From Leadbetterella byssophila DSM 17132 (GTDB lineage Bacteria > Bacteroidota > Bacteroidia > Cytophagales > Spirosomataceae), in contig NC_014655.1 of NCBI RefSeq assembly GCF_000166395.1, positions 2,976,001 through 3,040,000 of the forward strand: a stretch of DNA of 64,000 bases, written 5' to 3'. The position numbers were made by a program, and so were the translations under genes. This document shows, in pieces, positions 24,555 to 30,145 of this stretch; the first letter of the stretch is position 1; every line of letters starts with the position of its first letter. Under the pieces are notes generated by a model that searched no databases, was not told the DNA's origin, and was given only the letters and a program-made list of their open reading frames with translations.

Positions 24555-25319
24555 ATGTCTATTTCTGAAGAGTCTGAATTAGAGGGGATGAAAGCAGTAG
24601 GCCATGCAGTAGCCTACACCTTGAGTGAAATGAGAAAATATGCCCAAGTGGGCATGAGTACCTACGAATTAGATCAGTATGGTGCACAAATTATGGAGAA
24701 ATTAGGTGCAAAATCAGCACCTAAACTGACCTACGGTTTCCCGGGATACGCCTGCATCAGTACTGGAGGTGAGTTCTGCCATGGAATTCCATCAAAAGAG
24801 AGAATTTTAACTGAAGGTGAACTGATCAATATTGACGTTTCCGCAGAACTAAACGGTTTTTGGGCAGATAATGGATGCTCCTTTGTTTTAGGAGAAGATA
24901 TCCATGGGCACCAAGCCTTAGTGAATGCCTCCAAAGAAATTCTTCAAAAAACCATTAAGAAAATCAAAGGCGGGGTGAGGATAGCGGATATCGGTCATTT
25001 TATGGAGATGGAAGCTAAGAGATACGGTTATAAAGTCATTCGAAATCTGGGAGGACATGGTGTAGGTAGAAGCTTACATGAGCAGCCTGATGAATTGATG
25101 AATTACAAACAGAAAGATGATCAAAGAAGATTTCGTAAACACTCCGTAGTAGCTATAGAAACCTTTATCGCTACCCATTCCACTATCGCCGTTGAATTAA
25201 ATGACGGCTGGACCATGGTGGGTAATAAAGGAGGATTTATGGCTCAACATGAACATACCTTGATGGTGACGGAAGATCAACCTCTGATATTTACAGAAGC
25301 TAATGGAATTTTTGAATAG
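24555..25319 (+). CDS. map: Type I methionine aminopeptidase
   Basis: Removes the initiator methionine from nascent proteins. The 254-residue protein has the five metal ligands of the family: Asp in NIDVSAE (about 93), Asp in FWADNG (about 104), His in GGHGVGRSLHE (about 168), Glu in VAIETF (about 201) and Glu in AQHEHTLMV (about 232). No N-terminal zinc-finger extension is present. Its final codons GAA-TAG lie in the left copy of the 27-bp hairpin repeat that flanks the insertion sequence. Confidence 0.96.
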   Translation: MSISEESELEGMKAVGHAVAYTLSEMRKYAQVGMSTYELDQYGAQIMEKLGAKSAPKLTYGFPGYACISTGGEFCHGIPSKERILTEGELINIDVSAELNGFWADNGCSFVLGEDIHGHQALVNASKEILQKTIKKIKGGVRIADIGHFMEMEAKRYGYKVIRNLGGHGVGRSLHEQPDELMNYKQKDDQRRFRKHSVVAIETFIATHSTIAVELNDGWTMVGNKGGFMAQHEHTLMVTEDQPLIFTEANGIFE

Positions 25320-25339
25320 GAGGCTAAGCCTCCTATTCT
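25313..25339. repeat. Left copy of the 27-bp hairpin repeat flanking the IS
   Basis: A perfect 8-1-8 core palindrome (AGGAGGCT-A-AGCCTCCT) extended outward to GAATAGG/CCTATTC. It covers the map stop codon and is identical to 27081-27107. In the uninterrupted state it would be the shared terminator of map and the RND gene. Confidence 0.9.
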
Positions 25340-25366
25340 CTTGAGTTTGGTTATTTACTAGATATT

Positions 25367-25407
25367 AAAAAAAAAGTGCGTCAGATTTTGATTTGTCGCA
25401 TTTTTTT
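25367..25407. terminator. Hairpin near the left end of the IS
   Basis: A nine-A run plus GTGCG faces CGCA plus a seven-T run, so it can terminate read-through from map before the transposase. IS ends often carry such insulation. Confidence 0.55.
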
Positions 25408-25438
25408 GTGAGATTTATATCTAGTTACACGACTAGAC

Positions 25439-25645
25439 ATGGGATATCCGACGAAAATTCAATTAATTAAGAGAGCCAAGAGTGAGCAGTGGTACGTAAA
25501 TTTTCCTGCTGCTGTTGCGCAAGCCATAGAGTTCCAGCAAGGAGAAGTGGTGGAATGGGTGATTGACGATCATCAACGTTTGGTTCTACAGCGTAGTGAC
25601 GACTCTGTAAAAGAGCTTAAAAAAAAACTCCCAAGGAAGGTCTAA
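25439..25645 (+). CDS. AbrB/MazE-like N-terminal segment of the transposase (orfA)
   Basis: A 68-residue ORF (MGYPTKIQLIKRAKSEQWYV...) whose middle, VNFPAAVAQAIEFQQGEVVEWVIDD, looks like a SpoVT/AbrB swapped-hairpin segment (P-A-x-A...F..G..VEW.I). It ends in KELKKKLPRKV just past an A9 run at 25619-25627. The transposase frame is open immediately downstream in the -1 frame from 25621, so this is most likely the N-terminus of a frameshift fusion rather than a separate antitoxin-like protein. I recall related transposases in other phyla that carry this segment in a single frame. Confidence 0.6.
   Translation: MGYPTKIQLIKRAKSEQWYVNFPAAVAQAIEFQQGEVVEWVIDDHQRLVLQRSDDSVKELKKKLPRKV
25619..25627 (+). 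promoter_or_regulatory. A9 slippery run, candidate -1 frameshift site
   Basis: Nine adenines at the orfA/orfB junction (CTT AAA AAA AAA CTC in the orfA frame). A -1 slip, or an added A in the transcript, joins orfA to the transposase frame; a TAA at 25618-25620 blocks that frame upstream. The fused product would be about 543 residues. Confidence 0.6.
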
Positions 25646-27069
25646 TTTGTTCTTTTCGGGAATTATTTGAAAAGTGCTTACCAGCGTTTAATCAACTTAG
25701 AACCTTTGAGCGAGCTCGGACTCTTGCTTTAGGTGTTTTATCGTGTGTTGGCCGATGTACTATTACGGGAATGGTAACGGCCAGTGGTGCTCAGTTCTTG
25801 GACTGGTCGGCTACCTATCGCCTTTTTAAGGGCAGCCGAATGAATATGAGCAAGATATTTGGCTGTATACGCAAAGAAGTAGTACTTACTAACGGTTGGG
25901 AGCATCCTTATATTTATGCTCATATGGACGATACATTACTACGTAAACGAGGAAAGAAAATCTTCGGAACGGGTTGGATGCGTGATCCACTTGGTCCGCC
26001 ATTTAGCAGTAATTTTGTGTGGGGGCAGCGTTTTATTCAAGTGTCTTTATCGCTACTAGAAAAGGGAGTGTTTGGGCCTTCTCGAGCAATTCCTGTTGAC
26101 TTTACCCATTGTCCACCAGTAAAAAAGCCTACTAAAGGCGCTGACGAGCAAACCACAGCTACTTTTTTGCAACAACACAAGAAAGAGAAGATGAGTGCAG
26201 TAGGTCTGCAGCGTATCCTCTCTCTGAGAGAAGATTTAAATGCGGACGGTTTTTCTAATAAGAAAGTGGTGTTAAGTGTTGATGGTAGTTACACCAACGA
26301 AACGGTAATAAAAAAGCTGCCAGCCGGAGTGGAATTAATAGGGAGAATAAGAAAAGATGCAAAGCTATTTTCTCCTGCCGAAGTAAAAATAAATCAAAGG
26401 GGAAGAAAACCTTATTTTGGAAGAGAGTTACCTACACCAGAACAAATACGGCAAAGTCCAGAAATACCATACCAAAAGATAGAAGCATGGGCAGCAGGTA
26501 AAAAACGAGTCTTTGAGGTGAAAACACTAAAAAATGTTAGGTGGAGGAAATCCGGGGAGCGAAACCTGATGCTAGTCATTATTCGTCCAGTTAGTTACCG
26601 ACTTACAAAAAGCTCCAAATTACTTTACCGAAACCCTGCCTATCTAATTTCTACCTCCCAGCATATAGATATCCAATTACTTGTACAGGCTTATATTAGA
26701 AGGTGGGAAATAGAGGTAGGCTTTCGTGATCAAAAAACATTGATCGGCTGCGGACAGGCACAAGTGCGTGAGAAAACAGCTGTCGAGAAAGTGCCCCAAT
26801 TTATATCAGCATGTTACGCAATGATCTTACTGGCAGCTCACAAATCAAACGAAAAAAAATCGCAGCAACTTCCAGGAACTAAATGGTACAAAAACGCAAA
26901 AAGAAAAAGAATTACCACAGGAGATTTACTCAATCGTGTGAGAATGGAAAACTGGCTTGAAAGTGTACAAATTAATTTAACCGACTTCGCAAAACTCCAA
27001 CAAAAAATGGCAAAGTTGGGTAAAATCAACAATCCAGCAATCGAAGCTATATTTTACAACAGAAATTAG
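25621..27069 (+). CDS. DDE transposase (orfB part), IS4/IS701-like
   Basis: The first ATG of this frame is at 25771, but the frame is open from 25621 and the intervening residues (FNQLRTFERARTLALGVL) are transposase-like, supporting expression by fusion with orfA. The catalytic triad is visible: Asp in AHMDDTLLRKRGKK, Asp in LSVDGSYTNE, and Glu in YIRRWEIEVGFRDQK, followed by the usual GCGQAQVR block. Family placement IS701-like versus general IS4 is uncertain. The reading frame is otherwise undamaged, so the element could be active if frameshifting works. Confidence 0.85.
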   Translation, partial: KKTPKEGLICSFRELFEKCLPAFNQLRTFERARTLALGVLSCVGRCTITGMVTASGAQFLDWSATYRLFKGSRMNMSKIFGCIRKEVVLTNGWEHPYIYAHMDDTLLRKRGKKIFGTGWMRDPLGPPFSSNFVWGQRFIQVSLSLLEKGVFGPSRAIPVDFTHCPPVKKPTKGADEQTTATFLQQHKKEKMSAVGLQRILSLREDLNADGFSNKKVVLSVDGSYTNETVIKKLPAGVELIGRIRKDAKLFSPAEVKINQRGRKPYFGRELPTPEQIRQSPEIPYQKIEAWAAGKKRVFEVKTLKNVRWRKSGERNLMLVIIRPVSYRLTKSSKLLYRNPAYLISTSQHIDIQLLVQAYIRRWEIEVGFRDQKTLIGCGQAQVREKTAVEKVPQFISACYAMILLAAHKSNEKKSQQLPGTKWYKNAKRKRITTGDLLNRVRMENWLESVQINLTDFAKLQQKMAKLGKINNPAIEAIFYNRN

Positions 27070-27080
27070 CCAAAGAGGAG

Positions 27081-27107
27081 TGAATAGGAGGCTAAGCCTC
27101 CTATTCT
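27081..27107. repeat. Right copy of the 27-bp hairpin repeat
   Basis: Identical to 25313-25339. It includes the RND transporter stop codon (27101-27103, minus) and acts as its terminator. Confidence 0.9.
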
Positions 27108-30100
27108 ATTTTAGGTGGAAGTAATTTGTACATCACAGGTGTTACTATCCTTGTTAATACCAGAGAAGATATTAAGCCTCCTATGATTACTAATGCCAAA
27201 GGAGAATACAGAGGAGAATGTTCTAATACCAAAGGCATCAACCCCCCAATGGCCGTGAGAGTGGTTAATACTATCGGTATAAATCTGGTTTTACCCGCTT
27301 TCTCAATGGCTTCGTCAATACTCAATCCCTCCTCTTTTCTCAGGTAGTTAGTATAATCCACCAGCAGTATGGAGTTCTTTACTTCTATACCTGCCAAAGC
27401 AATGATCCCTACCACTGCTGTAAAGGACATGGTGTTTCCCGTTAGGAACAGTATCCCCACCGCGCCAATAACCCCTAGTGGAATTACAGACAAGACTATA
27501 AATGAGGACTTGAAGGTTTTGAATTCTAAAATCAGTACCGCCAATATTCCAAATATGGTGATGATGATGATGGTTCCCAATCCTCCAAATGTTTCCGCCT
27601 TTTGTTCTTCCTCTCCTGCCAATTGATAGGAATAACCTTTTGGAAACTTCAGCTCTTCTATTTTGGATTTAAACTTCTGAAGGGTCTCAGCCGTAGTGTA
27701 GCCTTCTTTCACAAAGGAGGAAACGGAAGTAAAGCGAGCTTGATTATAGTGCTGTATCCTATTAGACGAGCTTTCAAATTCCAAAGTAGCTAATTGACTG
27801 AGTGGGATCTGTGCTCCGTTTCCAGCCGGTACAAAAATCCTGTCAAAGACATCTGCACTAACCGCTCCATTTCTTGGAAGACTTAGTAAAAGCTCATTGT
27901 TTTCCCCATTTTCGTCTCTAAAGTTTCCAATAGGGAAGCCTGATATCGCCATACGGATATGCCTGTCGATTTCAAATGTAGGTATGCCGAATAAACCCGC
28001 TTTTTCTTTGTTTATTTTTACCCTTAGATCTGTAGTTCTATTGCTAATGGGATTATTCACGTAGATGGTCCCTTCCGTTTGCTTATAGAGAGACTCTACC
28101 TGCTCAGCTAAAGTTTTCAATGTGTCCAGGTTTTCCCCATATATACGGGTGGTCAATGGGGCTTCAACAGGAGCACCTTGCTCAAATTCCAAGGCCTTAA
28201 TTCTGGCACCTGGGTATTTGTTGAGTTTTTCTCTTAACTCATTAATGAACTGAGTGCGAACGGGCACGGAGGTGCCCTCATGCAACTGTACAAAGATTTG
28301 CCCATAATTAGTGGCTGTCCCTCCCTTTGGAACTATATTATAATAGATCCTAGGATTATCTTTCCCCACATTTGCTGCATAGTTCTTCACAAGTGAACTC
28401 TCGGCTAATAGACTTTCCGTGTATCGTACGGCAGAATCCGTTTGGGCAATGGAAGTTCCTAATGGAGTTTCAATATTAATGAGAAATTGAGGCTTCTCAG
28501 ATTTTGGAAACACTGTAATTCCTATCACAGGTATTAGCAAGATGCTACCCACAAACAGTAAAATGGCTATGCCTAATGTTTTGATAGGATTAAGTAATGA
28601 CCAGTGCAGAATCTTTTGATATGATCCGTCAATCACGCGGTTCATCAACTGTAAAACTCTGTTACCCTCCTCCTTCTCTTCTTTCGGCATCAGAATGCTT
28701 GCTAGAAATGGTACTATGGTCAAAGAGATAAATAAGGATGCTAGTACCGTCATGATCACGGCCATTGGTAAGCTTCGGATAAAATCTCCTGAAGCCTCTG
28801 GTAAGAAGGTTAATGGAAGAAAGGCGAGAATTAAGGTAGCTGTACATCCTAGAACCGCCATGGAAATCTGTTTGGTTCCTTCAATGGCTGCGTCTTTTCT
28901 GGAATAGCCCTCACGTAGATAACGCGCTATGTTTTCAACTACCACTATGGAGTCATCCACCAATAAGCCCAGTGAGATGATGAGACCTACCACTGACAAT
29001 TGATTGATGGAATATCCCAATAAATCTATACCCGCTAAACCAATAGCGAGTGAAAGGGGTATGGAGATCATTACGATCACGGATGCTCTGATCCCTAAGG
29101 GGATTAAGGTGATCAGTACTAACAGTATGGCTATTCCGAAATCTCTGCCAAGGCCCTTTAATCTCTTGGATACACTTTTAGCCTGGTCAAAACTCTTCTC
29201 TAATTGAATATTCGCTGGTAGCTTCTTTTCGAAGTCCTCAATGATCGGACTGATCTTACTATCAATTTCAAAAATATTGGTTCCGTATTTTTGACTTGCT
29301 GTAAGGAAAATAGCACGCTTACCATTAAGTCGGGCTAAATAATGATTTTCTTCATAATCAAAGTAGATGTCAGCTATATCTTTCAGATAGGTCAAGTTTT
29401 GTCCGGTGGTACTAACTATAGTTCTGCCTATTTCCTCTAGATGGCTATAACTTCCAGAAGTCTTCACATTGATTCTCCTTTCCCCAACTTCAATAGATCC
29501 TGCAGGAATGTTCAAGTTTTCCGACTGGATTAGGTTCATAACTTGAGCTAAAGGAATCTTAAAACTTGCCATCCTTTCTGTGTTCAAGTCTATTCTTACC
29601 TGTCTTTTAGGAACGGCATGAATGTCAATATCCTTGATTCCCTTAATCTTCTTAAGTTCATCCTTAAGTGCTTTAGCTTGCTGGTCTAGTTCATAATAGG
29701 ATGCAGACTCAGATAGTAGACCTACTTGTATAATGTTAACCGTTTCCGGAGTTACTTTGACCACATCTATGGAATAAATATCCTGAGGTAATTTGTTTCT
29801 CAGGGCATTTACTTCTCGTAGGACTTCATTATTTTTTTCTTTTTCATCAGCCTTGAAATCAAATTCTACCACTACACTGGCCACTCCATTTGCCGCATGA
29901 GAAACTATTTTTTTGATTTCACCTAAAGAGGCTAATTTCTCTTCTATAGGGTCTACCACTAGTTCCTCCATATCCTCTGGACTAGTACCGGGATATACCA
30001 CAATGATATTATTAAAGGTAGCCCGCATAGCAGGGTCTTCTGCCTTTGGCATCTTCATCAGGGAGCTTATCCCTATGGCCATAATCATAATAAATATGAT

Positions 30101-30145
30101 GACCGTAAACTGATGATTTTTTACAGAAAAGCTGGTAATTCTCAT
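27101..30145 (-). CDS. RND-family efflux transporter, inner-membrane pump subunit
   Basis: A 1014-residue AcrB/MexF-type proton-driven pump. It begins with a cytoplasmic tail and first helix (NHQFTVIIFIMIMAIGISSL), then the PAEDP-like KAEDPAMR motif and the large periplasmic loop. Helix 4 has GLLVDDSIVVVENIAR with the paired Asp residues of proton relay (about 399-400), and a second periplasmic loop and helix bundle complete the duplicated architecture. This points to the hydrophobe/amphiphile group more than to heavy-metal pumps, but substrate is uncertain. Its start overlaps the MFP stop by 4 bp. Last gene of the tetR-led operon. Confidence 0.93.
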   Translation of the reverse strand: MRITSFSVKNHQFTVIIFIMIMAIGISSLMKMPKAEDPAMRATFNNIIVVYPGTSPEDMEELVVDPIEEKLASLGEIKKIVSHAANGVASVVVEFDFKADEKEKNNEVLREVNALRNKLPQDIYSIDVVKVTPETVNIIQVGLLSESASYYELDQQAKALKDELKKIKGIKDIDIHAVPKRQVRIDLNTERMASFKIPLAQVMNLIQSENLNIPAGSIEVGERRINVKTSGSYSHLEEIGRTIVSTTGQNLTYLKDIADIYFDYEENHYLARLNGKRAIFLTASQKYGTNIFEIDSKISPIIEDFEKKLPANIQLEKSFDQAKSVSKRLKGLGRDFGIAILLVLITLIPLGIRASVIVMISIPLSLAIGLAGIDLLGYSINQLSVVGLIISLGLLVDDSIVVVENIARYLREGYSRKDAAIEGTKQISMAVLGCTATLILAFLPLTFLPEASGDFIRSLPMAVIMTVLASLFISLTIVPFLASILMPKEEKEEGNRVLQLMNRVIDGSYQKILHWSLLNPIKTLGIAILLFVGSILLIPVIGITVFPKSEKPQFLINIETPLGTSIAQTDSAVRYTESLLAESSLVKNYAANVGKDNPRIYYNIVPKGGTATNYGQIFVQLHEGTSVPVRTQFINELREKLNKYPGARIKALEFEQGAPVEAPLTTRIYGENLDTLKTLAEQVESLYKQTEGTIYVNNPISNRTTDLRVKINKEKAGLFGIPTFEIDRHIRMAISGFPIGNFRDENGENNELLLSLPRNGAVSADVFDRIFVPAGNGAQIPLSQLATLEFESSSNRIQHYNQARFTSVSSFVKEGYTTAETLQKFKSKIEELKFPKGYSYQLAGEEEQKAETFGGLGTIIIITIFGILAVLILEFKTFKSSFIVLSVIPLGVIGAVGILFLTGNTMSFTAVVGIIALAGIEVKNSILLVDYTNYLRKEEGLSIDEAIEKAGKTRFIPIVLTTLTAIGGLMPLVLEHSPLYSPLALVIIGGLISSLVLTRIVTPVMYKLLPPKIE

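Follow-up and report, generated by a model that had tools for sequence, protein, structure and literature searches.

Insertion of an IS701-related element of Leadbetterella byssophila at DNA hairpins, with duplication of the whole hairpin

The subject of this work is an insertion sequence (IS) that lies in a 64,000-nucleotide stretch of the Leadbetterella byssophila DSM 17132 genome (NC_014655.1, positions 2,976,001 to 3,040,000; referred to as the window herein) and that stands between two identical DNA hairpins. As far as genome sequences can tell, comparison of its insertion sites with those of other copies and relatives has shown that these elements insert at hairpins of differing sequence, both intrinsic terminators and hairpins without a T tract, and that the whole hairpin is duplicated upon insertion. 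Judged from the flanks, hairpin targeting is the rule for the whole IS group and extends beyond the single site in the window. We consider it likely that this is an IS701-related group with a Tn5-fold transposase whose transposition is aimed by DNA secondary structure. The usual description of DDE transposases is that they generate target duplications of near-constant length, which is set by the spacing of their active sites. In the group described here the length of the duplication is set by the target hairpin, and this points to strand transfer on folded DNA.

At the window site, two identical 27-bp copies of TGAATAGGAGGCTAAGCCTCCTATTCT were found at 25313-25339 and 27081-27107, exactly where a preliminary description of the window, made from its sequence, had placed them. 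DNA folding of this repeat gave -11 kcal/mol, with a z score of -6.4 against 200 dinucleotide shuffles. The IS between the hairpins is 1,741 bp long and has imperfect inverted ends, CTTGAGTTTGG and CTCCTCTTTGG. The features of the site are as follows.

25313..25339, no strand: left copy of the duplicated target hairpin, 27 bp, with 12-bp arms and 1 bp beyond the arms on each side
25340..27080, + strand: insertion sequence, 1,741 bp
25340..25355, + strand: left terminal inverted repeat, starting CTTGAGTTTGG
25439..25645, + strand: open reading frame 1 (ORF1), 68 aa, AbrB/MazE-like
25619..25627, + strand: A9 run near the end of ORF1, from which the -1 frame is open into the transposase
25621..27069, + strand: transposase frame, 482 codons and a stop, with a Tn5-like fold and a YREK motif
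27065..27080, - strand: right terminal inverted repeat, reading inward CTCCTCTTTGGCTAAT
27081..27107, no strand: right copy of the duplicated target hairpin
24555..25319, + strand: left neighbour map, convergent, named as in the preliminary description without a check against a family library
27101..30145, - strand: right neighbour, the RND gene, convergent, likewise named as in the preliminary description without a family-library check

Five copies of the IS (L001-L005, 1,740-1,741 bp) are present in the genome, which is a single contig of 4,059,653 bp. The window copy (L001), L002, and L003 are identical, and L004 carries 8 substitutions. All five copies stand between perfect direct repeats (27, 26, 19, 26, and 26 bp, respectively), and every repeat is a whole hairpin that starts directly at the IS ends. 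Because the sequence of the repeat is different at each of the five copies, the hairpin belongs to the target and not to the element. In addition, since the other four copies also lie between duplicated hairpins, the duplication in the window is beyond chance. The preliminary description had proposed that a single native hairpin was duplicated around the IS, and had named as the contrary outcome a hairpin that other copies show as an invariant part of the element; the first point is borne out and no such invariant hairpin was found. At all five native sites a run of at least 4 T is present on at least one side of the stem, as in intrinsic terminators. One copy, L005 (G000:C1:1995838-1997581), has retained an intact hairpin duplication of 26 bp but is one A short in a run, which disrupts the transposase frame near codon 413.

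We extended the comparison to 55 loci obtained from a scan of genome contigs with a four-sequence alignment. The IS ends of these loci were called by a terminal-repeat weight matrix alone, and those of the copies in the own genome and phylum by their exact end sequences. With a hairpin taken as a score of at least 6 no more than 3 bases from the boundary, we found one at 88 of 94 usable flanks (60 loci), compared with 98 of 5,900 control positions elsewhere in these loci; 59 of 4,700 mononucleotide-shuffled flanks also reached this score and distance. Both ends were available for 38 sites, 5 of which lay too close to a contig end, leaving 33 interior sites. Perfect target duplications were observed at 20 of these 33 sites, with lengths of 15-34 bp (median 23), around ISs of 1,734-1,788 bp.

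These 20 duplications follow the hairpin both in position and in length. By script, 19 of the 20 are centred no more than 0.5 bp from the dyad of their hairpin; for the twentieth site (L036) the script picked a different stem, and by eye its repeat is symmetric. Duplication length correlates with hairpin length (r = 0.75, n = 20, or 0.84 without L036), and the offset between the cut and the foot of the stem is equal on the left and right in 18 of 19 sites. The breakpoints fall no more than about 4 bp from the stem foot and are symmetric about the dyad. Among 10,000 random segments from the same loci, the 99.9th percentile of self-complementarity was 0.73, a value exceeded by 18 of the 20 duplications. 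In the duplications a median of 86% of paired positions were complementary, versus a mean of 25% in the random segments, while arm sequences vary between sites. A protein that reads duplex DNA cannot sense the complementarity of two arbitrary arms, which becomes apparent only on folding. We also considered whether a T tract, and hence a true terminator, is required. This was rejected, as 8 of the 20 native targets have no run of at least 4 T on either side.

An empty site was found for a related copy, L027 of Sphingobacterium cavernae. When the joined flanks of L027 were aligned to the sister Sphingobacterium genome G568 (L173), they were 78.6% identical over 2,039 columns, and G568 has a single hairpin at the position where L027 has the IS and two hairpins. 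A single hairpin is also found at this site in G624, with the alignment falling into two blocks. The preliminary description had named two hairpins at an empty site as the contrary outcome, and the relatives of this copy have one. Clean empty sites were obtained for L027 only, in a search that covered the window copy and L005 among the own copies. A Pedobacter copy (L028) gave no clean empty site, the intergenic region being different in its sister genome, and neither did the own copy L005, whose flanks in G009 lie about 1 kb apart with other sequence between them.

In the mechanism that we propose, the palindromic target would be extruded as a cruciform, or its strands would be folded as hairpins, and the transposase, probably as an ORF1-transposase fusion produced by a -1 frameshift on the A run, would act on the folded target. 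Both 3′ ends of the IS would be joined to the hairpins at the phosphates of their two 5′ feet. Since these two feet would be close to each other at the four-way junction whatever the length of the hairpin, an active-site spacing suited to a short, IS701-like stagger could serve. Repair of the two long gaps would then leave a duplication as long as the hairpin; that is, with transfer at both 5′ feet, repair would copy the whole hairpin. The fullest version of this account is that of a widespread group in which an AbrB-like domain, fused by -1 frameshifting to a Tn5-fold core, would recognise the extruded cruciform and attack its two 5′ feet. The duplication would then be the hairpin itself, of any length, and the IS would come to lie in a self-insulating site between two hairpins. 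For that version as a whole our confidence is evenly divided.

Several observations weigh against this account. For the window copy, a search by way of map and the RND gene in 10 genus genomes (own included) gave no syntenic empty site: the only close map relative (G005) has a different gene downstream, and no recognisable map junction was seen by eye in the 260 bp beyond the RND gene in 8 relatives. At 9 of the 33 interior sites (L030, L038, L043, L047, L053, L058, L061, L075, and L077) the sequences at the two ends are unlike each other. A scored hairpin is present on both sides of these nine sites, except at the left ends of L043 and L077, and they may be recombinants, assembly joins, or cases in which the IS ends were joined to different hairpins. 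For one of them, L047 of Aquiflexum lacus, both target hairpins match short palindromic repeats that are present in many copies in the genome (genus search, 2 genomes), and so the IS also uses interspersed palindromes. The left flanks of L043 and L077 score 0-1 for a hairpin. Four more flanks (L036 left and right, L073 right, and L022 left) score 4-5, and short or long-looped stems can be seen in them by eye.

Four further sites (L016, L022, L024, and L026), all in genome G168, are imperfect or mismatched. L016 and L024 each hold the other's exact partner repeat (19 and 18 bp), and it is plausible from their sequences that these were left by recombination between copies; the hairpins, that of 19 bp among them, belong to sequences that are repeated in G168. 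L026 has a 19-bp repeat in which the outermost base is altered, and about 200 bp of its right flank is in common with L024. In L022 the right hairpin is the reverse complement of the left, with one mismatch. The flanks counted above are also partly dependent: L024 and L026 share their right flank, and L015 and L054 are one site, both of which are included in the 94. L054 was dropped from the duplication and base-preference counts. Two of the perfect duplications have a low in-register self-complementarity, namely L032, which is half a base out of register, with 0.10, and L036 with 0.64. The shortest target, L039, has a 6-bp stem, a 3-nt loop, and a 15-bp duplication, and is a poor candidate for spontaneous extrusion.

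A further point on this side is that the targets have a partial base preference. Reading into the hairpin from the boundary (92 flanks, 84 distinct), A occupies position +1 in 49 of the 84 distinct flanks and G occupies position +7 in 61 of them, the latter against a mean G fraction of 0.27 at adjacent positions (binomial p 2.5e-18, with kinship ignored). In these alignments, the preference shows that bases near the foot are read besides structure. Lastly, it is from sequence that we infer the extrusion of a cruciform, the fusion protein, and the role of ORF1.

The difficulty of extruding short stems such as that of L039 from duplex DNA would be avoided if hairpins were targeted while single-stranded, on the lagging-strand template or coupled to transcription, one strand at a time. 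Group IIC introns and IS200/IS605 elements indeed use single-stranded or folded DNA. However, duplication of the whole hairpin needs both 5′ feet, which are on opposite strands and which a cruciform presents together. Moreover, with 8 of 20 targets having no T run of at least 4 on either side, a terminator is not required. Taking these points together, we think that strand-by-strand targeting is unlikely.

The base preference at +1 and +7 bears on another alternative, in which the palindrome is recognised as unfolded duplex by a transposase dimer, or by the AbrB-like ORF1 product, on two half sites with a fixed cut distance and flexible spacing. The preference for A at +1 and G at +7 holds for both strands, and AbrB/MazE-type proteins bind duplex DNA as dimers. 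Against this, the arms pair along their length (median 86% versus 25%) even though arm sequences vary between sites, complementarity of arbitrary sequences is invisible to a protein that reads the duplex, and the duplication length ranges from 15 to 34 bp, following the hairpin. Recognition of the unfolded duplex therefore seems to us improbable, and we prefer the reading in which a folded hairpin is the target.

Distant IS701-like elements provided controls. Of 80 plasmid records that matched in a plasmid collection, all at less than 60% identity, 8 were fetched, and 3 of these (Novosphingobium, Azospirillum, and Streptomyces) were excluded because their ends were unrecognisable. To the remaining five records we added an element present three times in G088 and a single insertion from G235, which gave nine control insertions with ends CTCGACTTT and lengths of 1,437-1,544 bp. 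Seven of the nine have an equal 5 bp on both sides (CTAAG four times, CTGAG, ATTAG, and CTTAT), and the 5-bp repeats of the Sinorhizobium and Ochrobactrum controls differ at one base. A hairpin score of 6 was reached by 0 of the 18 control flanks. In a tree of 41 transposases, 34 from the hairpin group and 7 from the controls are split by one branch with a support of 100/100, the root being unfixed. ORF1 is absent from the 10 distant loci that were searched whole, where the best domain was no better than E 11.

These controls, with 0 of 18 hairpin flanks in distant relatives, also speak against a survivor bias, by which insertion would be random, only intergenic and often terminator-proximal events would persist, and the long repeats would be caused otherwise. 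All five own copies lie between convergent ORFs, as such a bias would lead one to see, but a bias towards gene ends cannot explain the centring on the dyad (19 of 20) or a length that follows the hairpin, and we regard it as very improbable. The preliminary description had offered the alternative that only CTAA or CTAAG at the loop was duplicated and that the IS ends match the arms, and although CTAAG does stand in the loop region of the window hairpin and CTAAG repeats flank 4 of 9 distant IS701-like insertions, we leave it next to no probability, since identical IS ends lie next to different hairpins at the other four own copies; by this comparison the CTAAG in the window hairpin is chance.

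The transposase of the window copy scores 179.5 bits with NF049999 (IS701_3), above the cut-off of 170, and 51.7 bits with the older NF033540, below its cut-off of 150. No IS1182 model was among the 9 NCBIfam families that it matched at E <= 1, and it did not reach the cut-off of the IS1634 family profile NF033559 (16.4 bits versus 100). Two hairpin-group copies in G168 fall just under the NF049999 cut-off with 164.7 bits. The cut-off is exceeded both by ORF1-bearing hairpin elements and by ORF1-less short-repeat elements (G088 and G235), such that NF049999 lumps hairpin-group elements with relatives of different target choice. The predicted structure of the transposase (pLDDT 80.9) matched Tn5 transposase in Foldseek with an E of 3.3e-10, and VIA-align to Tn5 gave a Z of 21.8 and a root-mean-square deviation of 4.7 over 384 aligned residues. 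On this model, the transposase has a Tn5 fold. D103, D104, R361, E365, and K372 are invariant in 34 transposases, and D221 and Y358 are nearly so. The YREK motif is complete in the hairpin group, with the Y-2-R-3-E spacing as published.

ORF1 was present in 43 of the 55 loci. Of the 12 loci without it, 6 have no more than 231 bases upstream and 6 match the transposase only in part; for the latter six, the stretch searched for ORF1 may lie inside the transposase gene. ORF1 of the window copy is 56-89% identical to 38 others, compared with 40-67% for the window transposase and 33 others. The MazE_antitoxin domain (PF04014) was detected at E <= 0.01 in 28 of 39 ORF1 members, and the window ORF1 itself scores 19.6 bits, below the cut-off of 24.7. 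Its structure model has a pLDDT of 63, and the best Foldseek rows were VapB, C56, and MazE, all with E > 1, which makes the fold match suggestive at most.

An in-phase A7 heptamer is found near the end of ORF1 in 39 of 46 cases (35 of 46 by a narrower rule), and a run of at least 9 A in 33 of 46. The transposase is in the -1 frame relative to ORF1, and this frame is open for 482 codons in the window copy. In 39 of 46 cases this frame has an ATG, GTG, or TTG among its first 45 codons; the window copy and six others have none there. Thus, the product of the window copy is likely an ORF1-transposase fusion made by -1 frameshifting or transcriptional slippage, to judge by the arrangement of the frames; in other copies, internal transposase starts are possible. 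At L022 a 552-codon open frame gave the appearance of ORF1 and transposase in one frame. We rejected this, as L022 has an A8 run, shorter by one base, and its ORF1 passes into another frame.

Matches to the IS were found in 2 of 59 near relatives (own genome included), namely the own genome and, with 24% identity, G052, which belongs to the same order, and in 8 of 395 genomes of the phylum (own included), some of them fragmentary. By organism label, the 55 loci of the wider scan belong to Bacteroidota, Balneolota, Ignavibacteriota, Thermodesulfobacteriota, Myxococcota, Pseudomonadota, Chloroflexota, Synergistota, Actinomycetota, Bacillota, and Acidobacteriota, with Armatimonadota added by record title. 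Six of the 55 (L027, L028, L045, L047, L054, and L067) come from isolates, all Bacteroidota or Balneolota. The other loci come from metagenome bins, where an individual contig may be misassigned, and so the spread beyond these two phyla rests on bins. No relative of the IS was returned by two viral-contig scans, to which the search for phage copies was confined.

Group IIC introns are retroelements that insert at terminators, and terminators are also among the targets of the window group. Targeting of hairpins by an IS is known from IS1272 and TnSha1 of the IS1182 family, which use stem-loop replacing transposition (PMC4923244, Furi 2016; PMC5678879, Wan 2017). Like the window group, IS1272 goes to hairpins that have little or no common sequence, several of which are terminators, and it can occupy one target in both orientations. 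The lack of a consensus is shared by the window group apart from its partial +1/+7 preference. In contrast, IS1272 deletes the stem-loop and leaves no target duplication, whereas the window group keeps the hairpin on both sides, and the IS1272 transposase is of another family. Attack at the 5′ feet with duplication of the hairpin was drawn as a possible pathway b by Wan 2017 (PMC5678879). The sites described here would be natural examples of a pathway previously drawn only as a possibility.

In the IS701 family (De Palmenaer 2008, PMC2266710), almost all members have 4-bp duplications, lengths are 1,400-1,550 bp, and the Y of YREK is present in 4 of 27. The window group resembles this family in its NF049999 score above the cut-off and in related ends (CTCGACTTT in the distant relatives). 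It differs in its duplications of 15-34 bp, element lengths of 1,734-1,788 bp, complete YREK, AbrB-like ORF1, and slippery A run. Long, variable duplications of 8-514 bp are described for IS1549 and IS1634 of the IS1634 family (PMC2266710), with no model offered there. Long duplications that vary in length are what these have in common with the window group, and by NF033559 the window transposase is outside the family. Other ISs insert in conserved repetitive extragenic palindromic (REP) sequences (PMC8450116, PMC1525189), and the available text of these papers does not state duplication of whole hairpins of differing sequence. Terminators or palindromic repeats as targets are what the window group has in common with group IIC introns and REP-targeting ISs, which differ from it in being retroelements or in using conserved REP sequences. 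Our literature search, which was mostly without subscription papers and had ISfinder outside its scope, returned no report of whole-hairpin duplication by an IS or of an AbrB-like ORF in IS701 relatives. Within the literature so covered, hairpin or terminator targeting by an IS (IS1272) is already known, and what is new is duplication of the whole hairpin by a DDE IS group with an AbrB-like ORF1. The group lends itself as a natural case in which to test whether the shape of DNA, and not its sequence, can aim transposition; it also makes the formation and use of cruciforms in cells testable, and hints at a tool for terminator-aimed insertion.

Turning to the neighbouring genes, the preliminary description had noted that both stop codons lie within the hairpins. 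We confirmed this for map (25317-25319, left copy) and for the RND gene (27101-27103, minus strand, right copy). After insertion, a consensus scan still identified a terminator-like site for each neighbour, in the left copy on the plus strand for map and in the right copy on the minus strand for the RND gene, and the tails that follow these two stems, TCTTGAGTTT and ACTCCTCTTT, derive largely from the IS ends. The same description held that both neighbours keep a working terminator. A terminator-like hairpin is indeed found on each side, and its function is only predicted. Both neighbours thus keep a hairpin, and the IS sits between two predicted terminator-like stems; this suggests a route by which an IS could spread with little harm to genes and terminators. 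Finally, a third TAAGCCTCCTAT, which is one arm of the target hairpin, occurs at 27173-27184 within the RND gene, 80 bp from the right copy, and is probably there by chance.

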